64,000 nt of DNA from positions 2,564,501 through 2,628,500 of the forward strand of contig OX359189.1 of assembly GCA_947172415.1 (NCBI GenBank). Reading direction: 5' to 3'. This stretch comes from Chondrosia reniformis. Taxonomy: Eukaryota > Porifera > Demospongiae > Chondrillida > Chondrillidae. Position 1 is the stretch's first letter; each line of letters opens with the position of its first letter. Below the pieces are notes generated by a model. It saw nothing but the letters and a program-made list of their open reading frames with translations. It did no database searches and was not told where the DNA came from. Positions 100-55,355 of this stretch are shown in pieces. Both the position numbers and the translations under genes were made by a program.

Positions 100-3000
100 A
101 TGGGTGACTTTGAAAGGAAGCGCTTAGAGAGAATTAAAGAAAACGAGGCTTATCTGAAAACGCTAGGTTAGAGACATGGATGAATGCTAGCGCATTATCA
201 AGCAATTGCATTTCTAAATAATTAGTAGTTAGTTAGCAGCTAATTAGTCTTAGTATTTGAACATCACATTAATGGATTATACGTGCAGCCGTGTGCCCCG
301 TAACCATATGACTAGTTGGCTTCCTTTTTGTATATATACCTTGGGTACATTAACAATAAATGTACCCGCACTCAATTCAAGTCATTGATATATATCCAGG
401 GATTCCCTTTATATATATATAGCTAAAAGAATTGTGGCTACATCTCTATCTCAATATTACTTTAAGTGACTAGGGTTGGACATGTCTATATATGTAAATT
501 CTTTTTGGAAAATTAACTTGAGGGATCCTAAACAGATTGACAATATATATTCAATGTGATGTTTCATCTCACTGACATATAAACACATGTACACCCACTC
601 ACTCTTCTTCCTGTCCACAACATATAAACATATGTGGTCCATATAACCAGAATCATGTAGCTACCATGTCCTACATGATGGAGACCGTGGATTGGACTGG
701 ATTGAAACATGCAGTAATAATTATTCACAATACTATATTCTTATATATATATTTCATATAATGTTACCTTATTAAACTCTACAGGCCTTGACTTGAAGAG
801 TAGGCAAACTGAACTGAGCTTGTTCACAAATAGTAATCCATTGACCTCAGGACGAAGCAGGAAAAGGAAAAAGACGACATGCAGTGATGACGATGATGAT
901 GAATGGGTGCCTGGAATGGAAGAAGCGCCTAAAAGGAGATCAAAGAGAAATAGTGGGTTATGTGCAGCAATCAAAGACTTTCATAGTCATTTCGTATAAA
1001 ATAAAGGAACATATATAGTTATATGATATAGATGTGTACATAAAATTTAAATTTCTGTTATTATGTTTAGTTTCAAATTCAGAAAAGTTAACAAGGTTTA
1101 GTGTACATATGTAGTTTACATTACTATATATTGTGTTCCTTTTTGATGTAAAGACATAAAGCCAGTTTCTTACAACGTAAACTCACTTTTTGAGGCAAAT
1201 GGTAAAGGACCACAAAATAGAAGAGCTCTCAGTGACATCACACAAACAGTTGTGAGTATATATACATGTATATGGTCTTTTGAGATATATACTGTAAGTA
1301 CAGTTATGTAAGTACAGCTATGTATAATAAATGGTGACCATTCCCAATGATTTTTATTTTGCCTTAGCCCAGTTAGTGACTCTCCTTATATGTACATACA
1401 TACATAAATATACACAAGCTGTGTTTGGCAATGTAATATTGTGTCATTATCATATATCCATCTATATAGACAAAAAAGATAAAAAGAGTTCTAGAGCAAG
1501 GTTCAATAGTAAATGATGAGAAAGACTGTCTCAGTAGACACTACAGGTCAAAAGTAAAAAAGCAGAACCAGGTGGAGTTCACAGATGAACAACTTCCAAA
1601 CTACTTCCTGTTCACTGAAGAATTAGACTTTTATGGCTTTACTGAAGAGCAGTGCGATTTGGCCTATGAAATGATGCATAGTGATCTTCAATTAGAATGC
1701 GCTAGGACTGAGAATGAATGGATGATTGACACAGATCTCTTTGATTCAGAACAAAACATGCAGGAGGAAGGATTTGATGGCTTTATTATTGAAGAGTATG
1801 TATATATAGGGTGCATGCGCTAAATGTATTATACTGTATTTTATAAGTAATACATAGGTACAAGCATATTACATACAATACTTTTACTAGTAACTGAGGT
1901 CGCGATTGCTAACCAATATACCGATTGCAATGTCTGGTCTGGACAACCGACCCAAAAAGTACTGTACAATATAATTATATTGATCAATAATTGTGATTCC
2001 GATATAATATTTGAAATTAAGATAACTCTTATGTCACATACTTACGTATATGTATGTATGTATGTAGCTTGGCTGAACTATATGATGATATACAGAAAAG
2101 TTTTGAAACTTTCAAATTTTCAAAGCGCATATCAGCAAGGAACAAAACATATGAAGAAGAAGAACTATCTGACGAAGATGAATATCTCTGTAAGTTATTT
2201 CATACATAATCAGCATTATATATTTACACATGTCATACAGATATTGTGTATGATGAAACAGATATATACCTTTGCAACTATATACACATGTATATACATT
2301 GACTTACAATATACTCTAGCTATATATACGTATATATATATAACTCCATTTTGTTAGATTGTGAGGAATGTGGCCAGATTAATCATGGGGACTGTCCAGT
2401 CCACGGTCCTCTGATGCCACTAGATGAGACACTTGGTTGGGATGAGGCGTCAAAGATACATACATCTCTCCCCATTCCAAAACAGTTGACAGTTAAAAAG
2501 TCATCAATTGCAGCAGCTGGTTTAGGAGTATTTGCTAATGAGTTCATCCCCAATGGTACTCGATGTGGTCCTTACAAGGGGATCCAGGTGGCAAAGACAG
2601 AAGTTGGTGTAGATGTCAACACTAGCTACATGTGGGAGGTGAGATGCATGTGAATATGCCCGGCTATATACGTATATGTGTACACAAATGTATTGATATG
2701 ATATACAATTACGTATGTCTAGACTGTGAACAAATCAAGAATATTCTCTATGCGCTATTAATATAATCATCAAGCATTGATTGGACAGTTTTCAATTTTT
2801 CATTTTAGATGTATATAATATTCTATTTTACTTACTATACTACGTATTTCATATACGTACTTCCAAAAAGATGGATTAAATATAATACACATTGCAGTTA
2901 CATATTATATACTGTTTTTTTACAGGTAAAACGCTTTGGAAATCCTGCTTACTATGTTGATGGTCGAGAGGAGGTTAACTCCAACTGGTTAAGATTTGTA

Positions 3001-4723
3001 AACTGTGCATGCGATGAAACCCAGCAGAACATGGTCGCCTTCCAGTACTGTGGACAAATATACTATCGGACATACAGAAATGTATACCCTGGAGATGAAC
3101 TAATGGTTTGGTATGGAGAGGAATATGCTAGGGAACTTGGCATTGAGATGAACTATGATGTTGATAGTGATGATGAAGATAATGGTGAGATTACGTATAT
3201 ATACAAGTACTTCCTATGACTTTAATGTAGCGGGAAAATTTTGCAATCGAACATTTCGTGGTTTTAATTTCGTGATTCCCCCACAGTAGCTCACATATTA
3301 TTTTGGGAGAAAATTTTGCAAATTTGGTCAATTAAATCACGAAAATCGCAATCATTAAACCTTGCAAAATTTTTCTGCTATATGGTATACCTTGTGTGCA
3401 CTGTACATGTTCATTATATGTGTATTTGATAGAAAATAATTGATCACTGGGAGATATTACACCTGACCAACCAATTGCAAGTGACCAAAGTCCTATTAAA
3501 AATGACAACTCTATTTGTTGTTTGTATACATTGCAATTGGGAATGACTATAGTAATTTGAACATTTCCGCTACATACTACATGTACCTGTAGATGTGATA
3601 AGGATTATTTGTTGCATTCATAGCATCAGTAATACTAGTATTTAAAGAAAGTAAATGCTTCAACCTGGAGATCTTCATCAGCAATGAATCATAATTCAAT
3701 TACCATACTGTATGCATGTCCTATAGATAAACAGATTGAATACATACTTTAAAATAACAGCTTCAAATACATATTATTATCTTCTATACAAATTGCATCT
3801 AAATATTAATTTAGTGTTCGCTCTATCTATCCATTTTATAATATTTTCCTTCTTGTTTCTTTTAAGCTTTTCTTCCCAATTACAAATGCCAAAGATGTGA
3901 ATCCTCATTTGTTGAACACTCTTCGTTCAAGGCTCATTTAAGAAGTAACTCACTGTGCAATGAAGCAAATCCTCAAGTGTTCCAATGTAAAAAATGTGAT
4001 GTGACATTTGGAAGACTATTTGAGCTGCAGCACCATATTAGGAGACACCTTTACATAGCCACTTATGGAGATGAAAATACTAGATCAGAGACGAGCAGTA
4101 CCAAGAATAGAGATTACACCACAAAAGAGGTTAAAACTGATAATAAAACTTGTGAATACTGTGGAAAGAGATTTACACTGGCAGGTGACCTCAAGAGACA
4201 TCTCAGAATACACACTGGAGATAAGCCATACAAGTGTACATATTGTGATCAAGCATTTACAAGGGCACATCACCTCAAGGCACATCTCAGAATACACACT
4301 GGTGATAAGCCATACAAGTGTACATATTGTGATCAAGCATTTACACTGGCACATCACCTCAAGACACATCTCAGAATACACACTGGTGATAAGCCATACA
4401 AGTGTACCTATTGTGATCAAGCATTTACACTGGCACATCACCTCAAGACACATCTCAGAATACACACTGGTGATAAGCCATACAAGTGTACCTATTGTGA
4501 TCAAGCATTTACACAGGCAGGTAGCCTCAAAGGACATCTCAGAATACACACTGGTGATAAGCCATACAAGTGTACCTATTGTGATCAAGCATTTACAAGG
4601 GCAGGTAACCTCAAGGCACATCTCAGAATACACACTGGAGATAAGCCATACAAGTGTACCTATTGTGATCAAGCATTTACAAGGGCACAAAGCCTCAAAG
4701 GACATCTCAGCAAACACATATAA
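100..4723 (+). CDS. PRDM9: PRDM9-like PR/SET-domain zinc-finger histone methyltransferase, 8 exons
   Basis: Exons at 100-166, 785-993, 1162-1251, 1470-1795, 2068-2189, 2358-2638, 2926-3184 and 3867-4723 join in phase to give 736 aa. The N-terminus has [15 protein letters not shown], then a DDDDDEW segment. Exon 5 ends [10 protein letters not shown] and runs into [17 protein letters not shown], matching the zinc knuckle before the PRDM9 SET domain. The SET core follows: [49 protein letters not shown]. Exon 8 holds a degenerate finger, a solitary C2H2 finger and seven tandem fingers. In vertebrates PRDM9 trimethylates histone H3 at sites chosen by its fingers and places meiotic recombination hotspots; that role here is inference. 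I see no KRAB domain, and exons 2-4 match nothing I recognise. The exon 3 and exon 4 acceptors are the least certain. Another PRDM paralogue is possible, but knuckle and SET sequence favour PRDM9/PRDM7. Confidence 0.87.
3228..3392. mobile_element. MITE in intron 7 of the PRDM9-like gene
   Basis: The ends are inverted repeats: GCGGGAAAATTTTGCAA at the left and TTGCAAAATTTTTCTGC at the right. The interior also has matching halves (TCGTGATT against AATCACGA). There is no coding capacity. This is a non-autonomous DNA transposon of about 165 bp. Confidence 0.7.
4149..4720 (+). repeat. 84-bp coding tandem repeat: seven C2H2 fingers
   Basis: Seven zinc fingers in tandem, each 28 residues (84 bp), share the linker [13 protein letters not shown] and the core TYCDQAFT. 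Fingers 2-6 are identical except at helix positions -1, 2, 3 and 6. Those residues read R-HH-A, L-HH-T, L-HH-T, Q-GS-G and R-GN-A in the order -1, 2-3, 6. Finger 1 (L-GD-R) and finger 7 (R-QS-G) also differ in the framework. Third-position differences are few, which indicates recent homogenisation. Confidence 0.93.
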
Positions 4724-5078
4724 ATTATAATTATTTTAAATGAAAGAAATATGAATATACAGTAATTTCTTGAATTGGATTTTATTTTTAGCATAAATTT
4801 AATTTTATGATTAAATCTTGATTTTGATTTAATACATGTATCATTATAATTATAGCTAAGTATACATGCAAGTATCTATAAAATATTTACAATAATACCT
4901 TAAATACCCATGAATAATCGAAGTAAGTCTGAAACATCATGAAGAGGGAAAACAAAGAAATTGCTGGGAATTGAACACAGGACCAGTAATTTTATTATGA
5001 CGAATGGTAATAGTATAAATAACCTGAGTACAGTTTAGTTAAAATTATTAGCAATTTCATTGTCTCTTGTATTAAAGA
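4724..5078. other. Convergent intergenic spacer with a SINE fragment
   Basis: The 3' ends of the PRDM9-like gene and HYOU1 face each other across about 355 bp. The spacer is AT-rich. The segment 4930-4990 matches part of the tRNA-derived repeat seen at 20035-20135 (shared TGCTGGGAAT and GAAGAGG blocks). I see nothing else in it. Confidence 0.6.
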
Positions 5079-8000
5079 TTAAAGTTCAATACGACTATCT
5101 TCAGTGTTGCCATTATCCTCATCATACTTTGCTTGGCTTGTGTCCTCTCTTACTGCATCTTCCTCCTCCTTGGCTGTCTGCTCATTACTTGGTAATTCCA
5201 AAGGTTTCTCCTCGTTATCAACCTGTGAATCGGATGTATCTATCTCTTCATCCTTTGGTACATTTTCACTTTCTAAAGTCTCTGCATCTGTTTGATCTTG
5301 CTTTTCATTGGAATCTTTGCTATCTTCACTGTTCCAAAAGCTTTCATCAGGTACACTCTGAGCAGAATCTTCAGATTGCTCAGCTGTGGTATCGTTTGAA
5401 GCATTTGATGTCACATTTAAAGTCTCATTTGCAGATTGTGGTTTGGGTTTGGGTTTGGGTCTGTACAATTTTAATTTATTCAATAAATACATGAGTTCCC
5501 TGTCTAACTTTCTCATTCTTTCATTTATTTCTTCTACAGTTAGAACTGGTTCTTCACTTAGAGCTGTTGCCCTCTGCTTTTCCTCAGTCGTATTAAACCA
5601 TGTCTACTCAATAGAATAGGGCAACACAGTAAATATAATTATATTATTATAATAATAGTATTGAGTATTTTTACAGGTAAGAGTGGAGTTCTTACTTCAG
5701 TATCTATAATCATGTCTACCAACACTTTTCTTTCCGTTTCCGTAAACACTTGATCATCTTCACCAAGTACAAGTGACAGGTTGTCCATTCGCAAAACAAA
5801 GGTTTTGGATACGTTCAGTGTTTCCTTCAACTTCTGAACTGTCACAGGAACCTCACGGTATTGATACAAACGATAGAAAAAGGATTGTGTAGCCTTATGT
5901 AGGCCTGTTAGCTTCCCACTCAAGACCTACAGAACATACAATTATTGAGATTGTGTTATCATATGCAAAAGCATCAACACTAATTTATATAAAACACAGT
6001 TACAATGTTTAAGCGCTATCCTCATTATATAATGTACGTACGTATAACTGCAAGCTATTGCAATGTGAAATTTAAAAAATCTTGCTATACTGAAGTATAA
6101 AGTTAAAAAAATATGGTCTATAGTTGGTGGATCTATAAATGTTTATCAACTAAAGTATAAAAAAGGGGAAGTAATGAGAAAACCTATGTAAGGGTATCTG
6201 TTAATACAATACATACATACACGGAAAAGTTGCAGCATATATATAGTAAATATCACTACATAAAAAGGATTGAAGTACTCAGAGTGACTTTTCATCAAAT
6301 GTTATAGCATGAAGTTTACTATACAGATCCTGGCAGGAATACTAACCTCAGTATCGGCCACTTCTCCTTCATCAAACAACCACTCTGATGCTGCAGACAG
6401 TACCTCCATAATGGCGGTCCGCTGTTCCTCGGTAGATATAACTTTTGCTTCCTCACCATCCATGAAATCTTGAGTTTCAAAAATAAAGGATTCCAACGAG
6501 TTTTGGGCCTATACAAACAAAACATCTAGTAACATCCAAATATTTGCATATTTATTTAAAATTTGTAAGGTACGTATGTATGTATGATAGAATCTAGTCT
6601 ATGTTCATAGGAAGAACCTGCTTACATATCATGAGTATCAGCATATTCCCAACTGCTTAGCTGGTAGGTACTTAACTCTGTTAAAATTAACATTGAATAT
6701 ACAATTTGTTTGGAACTAAAGTTTTGTGGTTGGCAAAGGATATGACTTTGCAGTGCAGTTCTACTGTACATATGCAGATTGAGTCACTTTGACATGAAGA
6801 ATGTAACATATTCAACAATAACAAGTCTAAAGGTATATATACTGATCATGGGAATGAATTGTATAAAAATAACACTACCAAACACACTCAGCAGATGTAT
6901 ATACGTACGTACCTTCTCTCTGGCCTTCTTTGCATCGTCCTTCTCTTGTAGTGCTTTCAGTTTATCCTTGGAGACTTTCACAGCTTCTTTACCTGGCGCA
7001 GTCATGTGCCGTACATCTATAGAGCTAGATAGAGCTTCCTTTACAGTGACTGTCTTTACAGTTTTAACTAATTTCTTTTTGGGTTTTTCCTCAAGTGATT
7101 CCTCAGGTGTGTCTGGAACTTCAGGTTGAGTGGGAGCTGAGGGCTATAAGAAAAGCATTAATTACATACATAAAGTACATTATATACAGTGAAACCTGTC
7201 TAATGCGGTCGGCTTGGTGCCAGCTGAACTTGGCCTAGAGAGGTGGCTACATTATACGTATGTACCCTTATATACAGCCTATAAATATACACCATTTTTG
7301 TATGTTTTACTGTACTACACTATAACAATGTAAGTAATCGGGCTGCCAGCTTTCGTAAACAATTCTTAATTTGGGTACAGAAGATTAAAAATACATAATA
7401 CACTTAAATATTTACTTCCCATAAGTAGTGCCTATATCTGGTATACCTAAAGTGAACAAGTGAGGGACAATACTCCAATCAGTTGACTATTACACAACAA
7501 TGAACAAATTCATTACACTTCTTTGTTGGGAACTGAACCTCAATAATTAGCTACCAGTGACTACTTTGAGGAAGACTATCCTTATATTAGTAAGTGGACG
7601 TATCAAGGTACGTAACTGATTACTCTTGTGTAGATATGTATGTATGTCAAAATATATAATAATAGCTGAAGAACATACTATGAGATTCTCGATTTAAAAG
7701 GCATTTGCTGAATGTACGCATGTACCTCTGAATCTTGTTCATCCTTCTGATTTTGATCATTATCACTTGTGCCTTCTTCTTTGCTTGGCTCATCACCCTT
7801 GTTCTTTTCTACATCTTCCATTTCTGGATCTACTTCCTCTCTTTTGCTTTCAGTTTCTGGGTCTACTTCACGTCTATCTTCTTCACTTTCAGTTTCTGGG
7901 TCTACTTCATGTCTATCTTCTTCACTTTCAGTTTGTGGCGCAGCAGTGACCTCTTCTTCATCCTTAACTACTGGCTCTTCCACACTTTCACCTTGGCCTT

Positions 8001-11000
8001 CAGATTCTTGCACTTCGTCACCTCTTACATCGTCATCCTGATGTTCACTCTCAGCAGATGAGTCACTATCAGTTTGTGTTGTATTATTTGGTTGACTTTG
8101 GTCAGAATCCTGATTTACAGTAAAGTACGTTAAAGGAAAGAATGAAACAAGATATGTGAGCATTGCTAGGTCAGATGTTGAGCAAGGTCAGATATTGAGC
8201 AAGCAAGATTAGATATTGAGCAAGCAAGGTCAGATATATTGAGCAAGTAAGGTCATATATTAGCAAGAAAGGTCAGATATTGAGCAAGCAAGGTCAGATA
8301 TTGAGCAAGCAAGGTCAGATATTGAGCAAGCAAGGTCAGATATTGAGCAAGCAAGGTCAGATATTGAGCAAGCAAGGTCAGATATTGAGCAAGCAAGACC
8401 AATTATTGTATTCTGCTAATAGCATCAAATAGTTTAGAAGTGAATAATCACTGGAAAGCAGTATTGCCCACTAGCCAAGTGACTGAAGTGTTATCTGGGT
8501 TGGTGTACTACGTATGTATTAAGATGTCAAAGAATCTGGACCCCAAGCCAAGATAAGGCTTCAGTCATTTGGTAAGTCAGCGTAACACTTCCCAGTGATT
8601 ATTCACTTCTTCATTATGTTCGGTTTTAGTGAAAATAACTCTTTTAGTTCATAAAATGTGTACTGATCTGAAACAAACAATTCACTTACTTGATTAGTAG
8701 TCTCATCTTCTTGGTCTTTGGCCATCTCAGAGGACTCCTCTTCCACAGGAGCATCTTCTTTGTCTTTATCCTCATCCGCCTTCTCTGCTTCAGAACCAGA
8801 AAAGAAACTTGAAATTGTCTCACTAATTTCTACAAATACACACGTACAACATTCATAAAAGACACCATCATGTCAATTAAAGAAGTTATACATTAGCCAA
8901 TGGGTAAACCATAAATATGAGGACTGTAGTATTAAAGTCAATTATAGTAAAATGGCTATGTATGTTTAAGTAATAGTGTATTTAGATCATACGTATGTTT
9001 GCATGAATATGCTGAAAAATGCAACACTCCTGTACATACGTACGTATGTATGTAAAGGCTGATTATTGGACTTATGATTAACACTGTACTTCTTACTAGT
9101 AAAGGTCGATTTTTCCTCTTCCTCTACCATTTCCTCAACTTCCTTTTCAAACACTTGTTCCACCTAAATTACATACATAGTACAGGCAGCATAGTACAGG
9201 CAGCATAGTACAGGCAGCATAGTACAGGCAGCATAGTACAGGCAGCATAGTACAGGCAGCATAGTACAGGCAGCATAGTACAGGCAGCATAGTACAGGCA
9301 GCATAGTACAGGCAGCATAGTACAGGCAGCATAGTACAGGCAGAAGTTGGGCATGTTCACATTATCGTATATGAAGCACTACCCAGTCCCTGAGTATATA
9401 CTGTAGGTATGTAAATCATAACACAAACCATCAGTTTGTAGTAAGTAGTCATAAAGCTACATCTCTCTCCACTGTCTTAACTAATCTATGGATGCTGAAG
9501 GCTACAGTTTTAGAATATAACCTCTATTTACATCCACATATCTGTAAATGTGAATTGATAAGTAGTTTTTTTTGGCTGGGATTTTCATTGCTACAGCCAT
9601 AAAGCACTATAACTGTTGTCGTATATCCCAACTCTAAACATTTGTAACTATGCATGTATCTCTCTATTAGCATGCATATGACGACTCAACTCTTCGATGG
9701 AGCTTACCTCATTCAGTAGCAACAGGCCATTGTGGTCAACTTCAAAGTGAGCCTTGACCCCTTTGCCCACTGCACCCTCGTTCTTAGAGAAGGCCTCAGC
9801 TATTCCACCGACAGTCACTTCTAATAGCAGTGACTCTCCGATGCAACTAAACATTGGAACACAAGACAGCCATAAGTATGCAATATACAGTATACGTACT
9901 GTACAGTATATATACACAAGTGATAGATACTTATAAGTATAAATAAATAAATAAATAAATAAATAAATATAAGCATATATGTACAGTACACACTAAATAT
10001 TTTGAGAATAACATTTGTATTGCAAAGTCATAAAATTATTTACAATAAATTATTAACTTCAAGAACTACGACTACATGAACAGCATATACCGCATGTCTG
10101 ATACTAGTACCTTCTGTCAAATTCTGTAAACTGATCGAGTCCCGTGTAACTGACCCGGAATGCAAAGTCATCAGTCATCTTGTTGAATGTCATTACCTTC
10201 TTCTGTGGAATTGGATTGCTCCTCCTAAACAACATTCTCTTAACATTCTTTGTGTCTGCTTGTCCATCATCCGTTGTTTCCAACTTCCTATCAAAACTGA
10301 CCTGAAATAAGACAAGGCAGAGATGTTCTAATTAAAACTGAAATATATGCATTGTATAAACCCGAGAATGTACGTACGTATGTACGTAGCTGTCACTCAA
10401 TCAGACGTAATGGTTAAGATGGTTGACTATATTATAGTAGTCACTGTGAAAAGGTCTCAAATTATTTTCCTTTAATATACGTACATTATCCATTTCAGCA
10501 CTTATTTACAGTACATACAAAGATAAATTTAAAATAATACTGGTCAAATACGTACATATGTATCATGTACTGGTATATCATAAACTGATTATTGTCTCAT
10601 AAAACTACCAGATTCCATACTAATATTTCCTATCATTATTATTCTTAATTGGATTGGTATATTATACTGTAAATACAGTAGAAACTCACTTCAATTGGAT
10701 AAACATTTGCACCTTTGATTTGAAACTTCTTGACCTTAAACCCTTTACTTAAGGCCGCTCCCTGGTACACTGCACCAAGAGCAATGGCTTCGTCTGTATT
10801 TAGACTCTTTCCCAATTCAGATCTGGAATACCAATTGTATAAACTTGGGATTACAACAGTTGGCCAGAACAACATTATAATAAGAAATAAATGATATTCA
10901 CAAATTAAATGTTCGACCACTTAAAGATCTACGTAGCTGTTGCTAATGTTTACTTACTTCTTTACAGCTTTAAGAAGTTCTTCTTGCACTTTTGGCGACC

Positions 11001-27979: not shown

Positions 27980-28680
27980 GGCATGACATTAAAATCAGTG
28001 CCGAGGGGACATAGCCTCAAGGCAGCTATCGATAATGGCCTAATCAGAGGCCACCAAAATGTAATGTCTGAGCCCGGAGACTAAAATGCTCCAGACATGA
28101 CAATAAAATCAGTGCCGAGGGGGTCATAGCCTCAAGACAGCTATCGATAATGGCCAAAATAAGAGGCCCAAAATGTAAAGTCTGTCCCTGGAGATGATGC
28201 TCCAGACATGACAATAAAATCAGTGCCGAGGGTTTATAGCCGCAAGGCAGCTATTGATAATGGCCCAAATAAGAGGCCCAAAAAATGTAATGTCTGAGCC
28301 CGGAGACTATAATGCTCCAGACATGACAATAAAATCAGTGCCGAGGGGTCGTAGCCTCAAGGCAGCTATCGATAATGGCCAAAATAAGAGGCCCAAAAAT
28401 GTAAAGTCTGAGCCTGGAGATGATGCTCCAGACATGACAATAAAATCAGTGCCGAGGGTTTATAGCCTCAAGGCAGTTATCGATAATGGCCAAAATAAGA
28501 GGCCCAAAAATGTAAAGTCTGAGCCTGGAGACTATATTGCTCAAGGCATGACAATAAATCAGTGCCAAGGGGTCATTGCCTTGAGGCAACTATAGATAAT
28601 GGCCAAATAAGTGGCCATAAATATAAATTTATGAGCCCACTTGAGGAGACTGATGCTCAAGGCATAACAAGACTCGAAAT
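27980..28680 (-). repeat. Tandem repeats in the element leader
   Basis: Five to six imperfect copies of a unit of about 110-120 bp containing AATCAGTGCCGAGGG, GCAGCTATCGATAATGGCC and AATAAGAGGCCCAAAA. They lie between A1 and the gag-like ORF. The unit includes the ATCGAT palindrome. Confidence 0.85.
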
Positions 28681-46455: not shown

Positions 46456-49400
46456 TTAAAATTGTTTTCTCTACATGTAGAAGAAAATCAATAAAGGAAT
46501 AATACTATAACAGGAAACTTCATTAGGAAGGACTGGACACTCACCAGAAACACAACCTTAAAGAAGGCAGCATCACTGGTGGCAGGGGTCATGGTTGGGG
46601 AGGTAACCTGGCCGCTGGGAAGGGCACCGATGTGGGATCCAGGGAACTGGGAGGACTGGAGGGCTACAAAGTTATCCAACTGCATCGAAGGAAGGAAGTC
46701 ACATTCTGGTCCTCCACCCTACAGACCCATAAAGATGGTTGCATCAGGTAACAGGAAATTGTTTGGTATTAGGTTTAATGAGTAGCAGATGCACTTGTAG
46801 CAAAAGAAGACATTAACATTGATCAGCCCTTCTCCACTAATCATGAGGAAGGTATGAGTAAGTTAAAAAAGAAGATTAAATGTTAATCCTTTGATTTGCT
46901 GGTATATACACCCATTTACAACTCTTTACCTACCTGATGGCCTTTTTATCATACGCATGTAAATATAATAACACAAACATCTTCTGATGACAGGTGATGT
47001 TTAATTATGGTTAAGGGATAAAGTATATAGTCAAACATTTTATTAGCCAACTTTCCTTTTCATAAATCTGTGAGTATACATGTACTATAATAATTATGTA
47101 TATATAATATAAATGCAGGCAGACTGCAGAATAACTCTCAGAGGTTATGTAAACATTTGAAAGGAAGTTAGTATAAGACAGCGCTATACATGCACATTCA
47201 CAGTAGCCAAATTTAGTCATGGTTTACACATACGCAGAGTGATGCAGACTTTGAAACTTAATTCAAACCTAATCTCTGTGTACTCAAATAACAGCTGCTA
47301 TAGTACCACATGACGTTAAGTAAGGAAAATTGTTCTTTAAAGAGTAAATACCAATACAGTAGCTCTTGTTTGAACAGTCACATTTGACAAGAAGCTGAGA
47401 GTTTTTGTTACAAGTACATAATTCTACTACCTATCTATCACTTTTACGTAACTCCATTGAGGAAGGCTTAATTAGAGACCAAAATGATATTTATCATGTA
47501 ATTAGTGATTGGCTGAATTTCATTCTCATTAATCAGAATCCTATAAATCGGGGGGGGGGGGGGGGGGGGTGTGGGGGGTGGTGAACCTACTGCATCTGTA
47601 CAGAAGCAGTTGACTTAAAACTTACAGAAGCGGCTAGGTAGATGGGAGGCGGTTGGTTTGGCATGGTTGGGCCCCCCTGAACGAGGCCAAGGTACCACAA
47701 GGTGTTTGCCATGTTGCGGAACTTGAGACTGCCAGGGTGCTCCATCGAAGCAATCACCAAGTACTCACCTACACACATCACGGTTGCAATAAAGGATATT
47801 GACATCATGATTATTTAGTCAGTACGTATATACCACTTTAGAGGGAACTAAACACAGAAAGACACAAATACTGAAAGATGTGTTGGTTTAATCCCCAGTG
47901 CTCTGTAACTAAGAACAATTGCCAGAGAAGTACCAGTTGTACCTCTGAGGTTACAAGCTACTGGTCAGTGTTCACTAGACTCATACAAGTGGCTTCTATA
48001 ATTCTGGTGGGAGTATAATGGTAGTCAACAAACCTGCCCTAAATGGTGTTAATTCTAACCGTCTAACATGAGCCCTATTTGAACCAATTTTACCTTGGCT
48101 ATTTAATCCTTGTTATCTGCATTGTGAAGATACATATGTTGAAGTGAATTGCTATTGCAGTCAGTGTTAGCTATACTCAATTCGGTGATTGAAACTGTTA
48201 TTATAAGACTAGAATTAAACTGAATATATTACTTACATACCAGTGTACCCAGAAAGTTGACAAAACTTTCAATTTGAAGGATTCAACTGGAATACGCATG
48301 TACAATATGTGATTCAGTATAAAGAATAGGAATAATGATCTAGAGGCCTGCCTACTCATTTCATATTGTAAGAAGTAATGTCATATACTTCAGTACTATC
48401 TGCAGAGGTTTGTAAAAAGCACAGAACTGTAACTCACAGCTTGATCCTCCGTCTCCTGAACAGTCAATTGTTCCATTCTCTAAGATACGAAGGAACTTAT
48501 TGTTAGATTTTGACCTAAGTTTCACAATATTTCCATTCTGCAATGCATTCTGTGGTGAAAAGATTTTATAACAATACATTTTCAGTCATACGAACATGTA
48601 TGTATGTGCGTATGAATAGGTATATTTACTATTATGAAATAATCACCATACATATTTATCTGCAAAACTTCAATATGAAGAGAAGCTTAAAAGATCGACA
48701 AGTGTATGAGACACGACATGTATTCATGTATTAAATACACAATTTTGTTCTTCAAAAAAGGTAGAGTGTCTTAGACTTAGAAATGTGGTCCAAGAGTGTC
48801 TTAGACTTAGGAATGTGGTCCAATAGTGTCTTAGACTTAGAAATGTGGTCCAAGAGTGTCTTAGACTTAGGAATGTGGTCCAAGAGTGTCTTAGACTTAG
48901 AAATGCGGTCCAAGAGTGTCTTAGACTTAGAAATGTGGCCCAAGAGTGTCTTAGACTTAGAAATGCGGTCCAAGAGTGTCTTAGACTTAGAAATGCGGTC
49001 CAAGAGTGTCTTAGACTTAGAAATGTGGTCCAAGAGTGTCTTAGACTTAGAAATGTGGTCCAAGAGTGTCTTAGACTTAGAAATGTGGTCCAAGAGTGTC
49101 TTAGACTTAGAAATGTGGTCCAAGAGTGTCTTAGACTTAGAAATGTGGTCCAAGAGTGTCTTAGACTTAGGAATGTGATATCTTACTTGAGGGATTGTGT
49201 GGATTGATTTGTCGATGTCCTTCTCGACATCTTTAGCAGCTTTCTCAACAGACTTTCCAATATCACCCTAGAGCACACAAAAACCTCAGGTGATGATAAA
49301 TCCAGAAAACTATAGTCCACATTACTTAGTAACTTACAAATAGCTTTCCAAGCTTCAGAAGGGGTTTTCAAATTCCCAGAATCAGAGTCATAAAGAAAAC

Positions 49401-54990: not shown

Positions 54991-55355
54991 TACGTACTAG
55001 TCTGACGAAATCAGTATGGGGTGCCAAACGTGTCAAAATGTAGCATTCTCTCTGTTAGGGATATCAGGCTCTGATATGAAACATATCATGACCTGATATA
55101 TATGCATACATATCATAAGCTGATATTAAAACATATCATAAGCTGATATGAAATTAAAATATATCATAAGCTGATATGAAAACATATCAGGACCTGATAT
55201 CATAAGCTGATATGAAAACATATCAGGACCTGATATCATAAGCTGATATGAAAACATATCAGGACCTGATATCATTAATTTTAATTGAGGGCGAATAAGC
55301 CCCGCCCCTAGTGCAACAGCTAGATACGGGTCGAGAGTCGTCGGACTAGTACGTA
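54991..55355. mobile_element. MITE-like element with internal palindromic satellite
   Basis: Eighteen-bp inverted ends, TACGTACTAGTCTGACGA and TCGTCGGACTAGTACGTA, pair with one mismatch. The interior (about 55062-55275) is a tandem array of a unit of about 36 bp containing CATATCAGGACCTGATATC, itself palindromic. A direct repeat (GGGAC-TTTC-AAGGGGAAAC) flanks both sides. Confidence 0.7.

Follow-up and report, generated by a model that had tools for sequence, protein, structure and literature searches.

A predicted PRDM9-type gene with a contact-diversified zinc-finger array in the demosponge Chondrosia reniformis

Mammals and salmonids are known to place their recombination hotspots by PRDM9, and a 2026 review, 'Why recombination hotspots?' (PMC13186367), follows this function back for about 420 million years. 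The review also places full-length PRDM9 homologs in cnidarians and sponges, with reference to Oliver 2009 and Ponting 2011, and calls retention of function in these older homologs unknown. Oliver 2009 describes Prdm9 fingers that evolve in concert in Nematostella vectensis, Lottia gigantea, and Capitella; positions -1, 3, and 6 were under positive selection in Nematostella, as was one codon in Capitella.

The gene presented here is similar to these three in that it belongs to an invertebrate and carries homogenised fingers; its helix positions -1, 2, 3, and 6 vary, and can be set, by description, beside the three positions named for Nematostella. The initial annotation of this locus had considered the combination of homogenised frameworks and diversified contacts a hallmark of vertebrate PRDM9, and had inferred that a PRDM9-type system may exist outside vertebrates. 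The pattern is not a hallmark of vertebrates only, and a case outside them is not new, as Oliver 2009 had already reported concerted evolution of the fingers in three invertebrates and the review places full-length homologs in sponges. The sponge passage of the review names no species and does not mention finger evolution. PRDM9 outside vertebrates is already known, while no report of a fast-evolving finger signature in a sponge PRDM9 was found in the open literature, among the matches listed.

The locus and its predicted gene

The window, by which we mean the whole stretch of DNA that was analysed (64,000 nucleotides; G000:C1:2564501-2628500), originates from Chondrosia reniformis, a demosponge, which confirms the earlier suggestion of a possible sponge lineage. 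The genome comprises 117,379,552 bases in 15 contigs, and its assembly (odChoReni1.1, GCA_947172415.1) consists of 14 chromosomes and the mitochondrion; COX1 was located on contig C15.

Within the window, a gene of 8 exons was predicted, in which GT-AG introns of consistent phases join the exons into a frame of 721 residues. Its start lies approximately 3.8 kb upstream of the last exon, which carries the zinc-finger array. The gene model is a prediction from sequence, which is least certain at the end of exon 2 and at the true 5' end. The coding exons are as follows:

100..166, forward strand: coding exon 1, placed by splice sites and phase; residues 1-22 and the first base of codon 23
785..952, forward strand: coding exon 2, a basic/acidic stretch with the end DEWVPGMEE...KRRSKRN; its donor GTGGGT looks weak
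1166..1251, forward strand: coding exon 3, from the gene model
1470..1795, forward strand: coding exon 4, from the gene model; acidic linker
2068..2189, forward strand: coding exon 5, with an SSXRD-like tail directly before the PR domain
2358..2638, forward strand: coding exon 6, with the zinc knuckle CEEC...CPVHGP and the first half of the PR/SET domain, including the equivalent of Y276
2926..3184, forward strand: coding exon 7, with the second half of the PR/SET domain, including the equivalents of Y341 and Y357
3867..4723, forward strand: coding exon 8, the last, in which the seven-finger array follows two isolated zinc fingers and a linker; stop codon at 4721-4723

The C-terminal C2H2 tandem array sits on a single exon (array 4151-4723, exon 3867-4723). 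The span of 3867..4723 that had initially been assigned to the array is therefore right at its end, which is the stop codon, but not at its start, which is that of the predicted last exon, the array itself running from 4151. Pfam matched residues 301-423 of the 721-residue protein to its PRDM2_PR model, which marks a PR domain, and detected C2H2 fingers in nine stretches.

At positions 11-19 of the window, 5' of the first ATG, TTTGGCGCG resembles an E2F-type promoter site. Several other repeats were found in the window. Tandem Repeats Finder detected a perfect 14-bp minisatellite at 9176-9343 (12.0 copies, 100% matches), and longer tandem arrays are present at 27982-28627 (111/226 bp) and at 48763-49177 (30 bp, 13.8 copies, 96% matches). 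Short palindromic repeats (ATATCA...TGATAT) are clustered at 55071-55275; their periods overlap and range from 13 to 51 bp, among them a period of 36 at 55161-55275 (3.2 copies, 100% matches).

The PR/SET domain and family assignment

Relatives of the PR/SET region were ranked by bit score among the sequences of solved structures. In this ranking, PRDM9 was the closest (149.4 bits, E 1.4e-42), followed by PRDM14 (99.7 bits, 1.8e-27), PRDM12 (92.5 bits), and PRDM11 (87.5 bits). When aligned to the human PRDM9 chain 4ijd, 72 of the 171 aligned residues were identical (42%). All three catalytic tyrosines (Y276, Y341, and Y357) align to a tyrosine in the predicted sponge protein; their numbering was derived from an assumed construct offset of 194 for 4ijd, with which the tyrosines land exactly at these positions. 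Ahead of the PR/SET domain, a zinc knuckle (CEEC...CPVHGP) could be aligned to that of PRDM9 (CEKC...CPNHGP). The earlier designation of the locus as PRDM9-like, made on the array, holds and is better founded than it was, since the predicted gene that contains the array also encodes a PR/SET domain of PRDM9 type with the three catalytic tyrosines.

Mammalian PRDM9 (Meisetz) carries one or more isolated fingers after its PR/SET domain, as does the sponge gene, which has two. The two are also alike in the PR/SET domain with its three tyrosines, in the knuckle that precedes it, and in the C-terminal array with homogenised frameworks and diversified contacts. In contrast to mammalian PRDM9, the sponge gene has no detectable full KRAB or SSXRD domain, and its array contains seven fingers.

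A second PR/SET gene was found in the same genome (L017; G000:C1:7288627-7289631, at about 4510-7005 of G000:C1:7284001-7294000). PRDM9 was the best match to this gene as well, with 103.1 bits against 79.1 for PRDM1, the next. It contains no tandem finger array; only single finger-like motifs, CPLC...H and CSCC...H, are present downstream of its PR domain. L017 could be a sponge copy of PRDM11 or PRDM7 type. PRDM11 has a PR domain related to that of the window gene and no detectable fingers, and L017 resembles it in having no tandem array. As L017 is also closest to PRDM9, similarity of the PR domain alone cannot pick the PRDM9 ortholog or draw the borders of the family in sponges. This leaves some room for a reading in which the window gene belongs to another PRDM subfamily, of the PRDM11, 12, or 14 type, which gained its array independently and became PRDM9-like by convergence. 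We consider such convergence very improbable, as PRDM9 leads the next PRDM of solved structure by 50 bits, and the PRDM9-type knuckle and the adjoining SSXRD-like stretch, although the latter is weak, point the same way. The window gene is preferred over L017 as the PRDM9 ortholog because of its array, its larger margin, and its SSXRD-like stretch.

The zinc-finger array and the pattern of its contact residues

Tandem Repeats Finder placed an array of 84-bp repeats at 4188-4718 (6.3 copies, 93% matches). In register, these are seven 84-bp C2H2 fingers, which run from 4151 to the stop codon at 4721-4723:

4151..4234, forward strand: array finger 1, contacts LGDR; its framework differs in part
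4235..4318, forward strand: array finger 2, contacts RHHA
4319..4402, forward strand: array finger 3, contacts LHHT
4403..4486, forward strand: array finger 4, contacts LHHT, a set identical to that of finger 3
4487..4570, forward strand: array finger 5, contacts QGSG
4571..4654, forward strand: array finger 6, contacts RGNA
4655..4723, forward strand: array finger 7, contacts RQSG, followed by the stop

The DNA of the array was found once in the assembly. Across fingers 2 to 6, the 28 residues are invariant save those at positions -1, 2, 3, and 6, exactly as the initial annotation had described. If 4 of the 28 columns varied at random, they would be exactly these four with a probability of 1 in 20,475. 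Finger 1 carries four amino-acid differences in its framework, while finger 7 diverges after the helix and terminates in the stop codon.

Nucleotide differences were counted by the method of Nei and Gojobori over all 10 pairs of fingers 2 to 6, pairs which are not independent of each other. Of the differences at the contact codons, 43 were nonsynonymous and 3 synonymous (pN/pS 4.36), and the framework codons showed 14 pairwise differences, all of them synonymous. As pS is alike in the two sets of codons (0.107 for contact and 0.095 for framework), the contrast is one of replacement changes, with pN at 0.467 and 0, respectively. An outcome named in advance as speaking against a PRDM9-like reading, namely substitution at the same rate in contact and framework codons, was not observed. 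When finger 1 was added, the framework showed 34 nonsynonymous pairwise differences and a pN/pS of 0.26, and the contact ratio was 5.23.

According to Baker 2017, gene conversion breaks the tree that underlies ratios of the pN/pS type. A statistic in the style of that paper was also computed, namely the share of the amino-acid diversity that is found at contact sites. This share was 0.60 for fingers 1 to 6 in Baker's 28-residue frame, and 0.69 when counted from the first cysteine. Within a 21-residue core, fingers 1 to 7 gave 0.64 and fingers 2 to 7 gave 0.82, while for fingers 2 to 6 the share was 1.00. Human and mouse PRDM9 are listed at 0.687 and 0.910, respectively, in the table of Baker 2017.

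Other zinc-finger arrays of the Chondrosia reniformis genome served as controls. At least 41 places in the genome match the array, 30 of which were taken as loci and scanned for fingers. Five of these loci contained runs of fingers, including the target, and 8 had no new run of at least three fingers spaced by 28; a stricter initial finger pattern led to fewer runs being detected among the loci. Besides the target, three arrays with five or six evenly spaced fingers each were detected; their framework identities were 0.26, 0.28, and 0.36, versus 0.84 for the target with its seven fingers. The contact-diversity share was computed for two of these three control arrays of at least five fingers and amounted to 0.29 and 0.26, in a control set that is small because 17 of the 30 loci had no frame holding two CX2C fingers.

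One locus (L025; G000:C11:7497664-7498830) contains two five-finger genes on opposite strands within 1.2 kb. For each of the five fingers, the two genes have identical contact residues, and their frameworks differ, which is the reverse of the PRDM9 pattern.

The array of the predicted sponge PRDM9 combines a homogenised framework with an excess of contact diversity, as measured in one array of one assembly. A similar appearance might arise in a minisatellite-like fashion, if unequal exchange homogenised the repeats and the differences fell on contact codons by chance or under relaxed constraint, with no selection involved. The array is indeed small, fingers 3 and 4 are identical in protein, the independent changes are few, and the pairwise counts are not independent of each other. 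Relaxed constraint alone, however, would bring pN/pS near 1, where 4.4 was observed, and the closely similar pS values are accompanied by replacements in the contact codons only. Together with the exact match to the four contact columns, this makes such an artefact, in our judgement, a far-fetched explanation of the array.

The N terminus, candidate partner genes, and proposed role

No match to the Pfam models of KRAB and SSXRD was obtained in the protein or its pieces, nor in the genome as a whole; the control genomes gave no match to these models either, which makes the genome-wide negative a weak one. When compared with the stretch of the second KRAB helix of human PRDM9, the first 24 residues of the sponge protein were identical at 11 of 24 positions without gaps, and none of 200,000 shuffles was as good. 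Homology of the N-terminal start to helix 2 of an ancestral KRAB A box is plausible; we put it no higher, as comparable helical motifs occur in unrelated proteins. The phase-1 end of exon 1 falls inside the codon for G in TLGL, at the TLG/L position where KRAB A exons end. A scan of 10 kb, made up of the first 2 kb of the window and the 8 kb that precede it, did not find the part corresponding to KRAB helix 1; the best score was 18, no better than the 21 on the other strand. Immediately before the PR domain, a weak SSXRD-like motif scored 19 against PRDM9, versus 16 for the next best position, when the LYCEMC part that follows it was left out. SSXRD is also weakly predicted in some PRDM9 copies of fish. 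In a 2022 survey, all 666 aKRAB-A entries belong to Bilateria.

Vertebrate PRDM9 copies that lack KRAB and SSXRD have apparently lost hotspot specification. As these KRAB-less copies seem not to place recombination, a reduced KRAB predicts that the sponge gene has no hotspot function, contrary to what is expected from a fast-evolving array. Either a reduced KRAB suffices, or an unseen exon completes the domain, or the sponge gene has another role.

Candidate partners of PRDM9 are encoded elsewhere in the genome. At two loci (in the regions of C3:8606889 and C11:1889708), CW and PWWP pieces share a strand and a span of about 1.6 kb or less, which is the plan of ZCWPW1/2. The CW domain of the C11 gene was closest to ZCWPW2 (42.4 bits, with MORC3 at 30.8), and its PWWP piece scored 24.2, slightly below the Pfam cut-off of 25.6. 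In the C3 gene, CW and PWWP were closer to MORC3 and NSD2 than to ZCWPW1, so that its place among the ZCWPW1/2 genes is tentative. The presence of ZCWPW1 and ZCWPW2 tracks that of PRDM9 in vertebrates. In addition, a TP6A_N exon, representing a SPO11-type gene, and one HORMA exon were found. These CW+PWWP, SPO11-type, and HORMA sequences would fit with sexual meiosis and a PRDM9 toolkit.

We propose that the gene is the PRDM9 of this demosponge and that the motif bound by its array sets the sites of meiotic recombination, which we regard as probable. The gene fits PRDM9 in its clearly testable sequence features, and the role in recombination is inferred from membership of the PRDM9 family. The gene would be transcribed as modelled and expressed in the germline, where the array would most likely bind a DNA motif. 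The PR/SET domain would then methylate H3K4 and H3K36 on nearby nucleosomes, and readers of these marks with CW and PWWP domains, along with the SPO11 machinery, would act at the marked sites, so that the motif would place meiotic recombination. Copying between repeats, by gene conversion or unequal exchange, may hold the frameworks of the fingers uniform, while selection that favours novel specificities of binding would alter the base-contacting residues in a Red Queen turnover.

A less likely, though still realistic, scenario is that the gene encodes a chromatin regulator of the PRDM9 family that lost the placing of recombination, or never had it, and whose array either runs an arms race against another target, for instance transposable elements or satellite DNA, or still bears the fading signature of a past hotspot function. 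Neither a full KRAB nor an SSXRD was detected, and satellite DNAs were proposed as a target in Oliver 2009. Furthermore, the KRAB-less alpha2.2 copy of salmon, whose hotspot function is believed lost, still shows a contact-diversity share of 0.471. Against such a regulator, the sponge gene has kept its three catalytic tyrosines, and among 227 vertebrate orthologs, no substitution at these tyrosines occurs in a complete copy. The two CW+PWWP genes in the genome likewise argue for the placing of recombination, which we continue to favour.

For Chondrosia reniformis, RNA reads (ERR10177766) already exist alongside an assembly at chromosome level and its alternate haplotype (GCA_947172445.1). With a gene that combines catalytic residues, candidate partners, and the contact signature, the age of PRDM9-directed recombination becomes testable in one species, and the same gene probes the rule, derived from vertebrates, that KRAB is required. 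Judged by its sequence features, the sponge gene suggests that a fast-evolving PRDM9-type system may be as old as animals.
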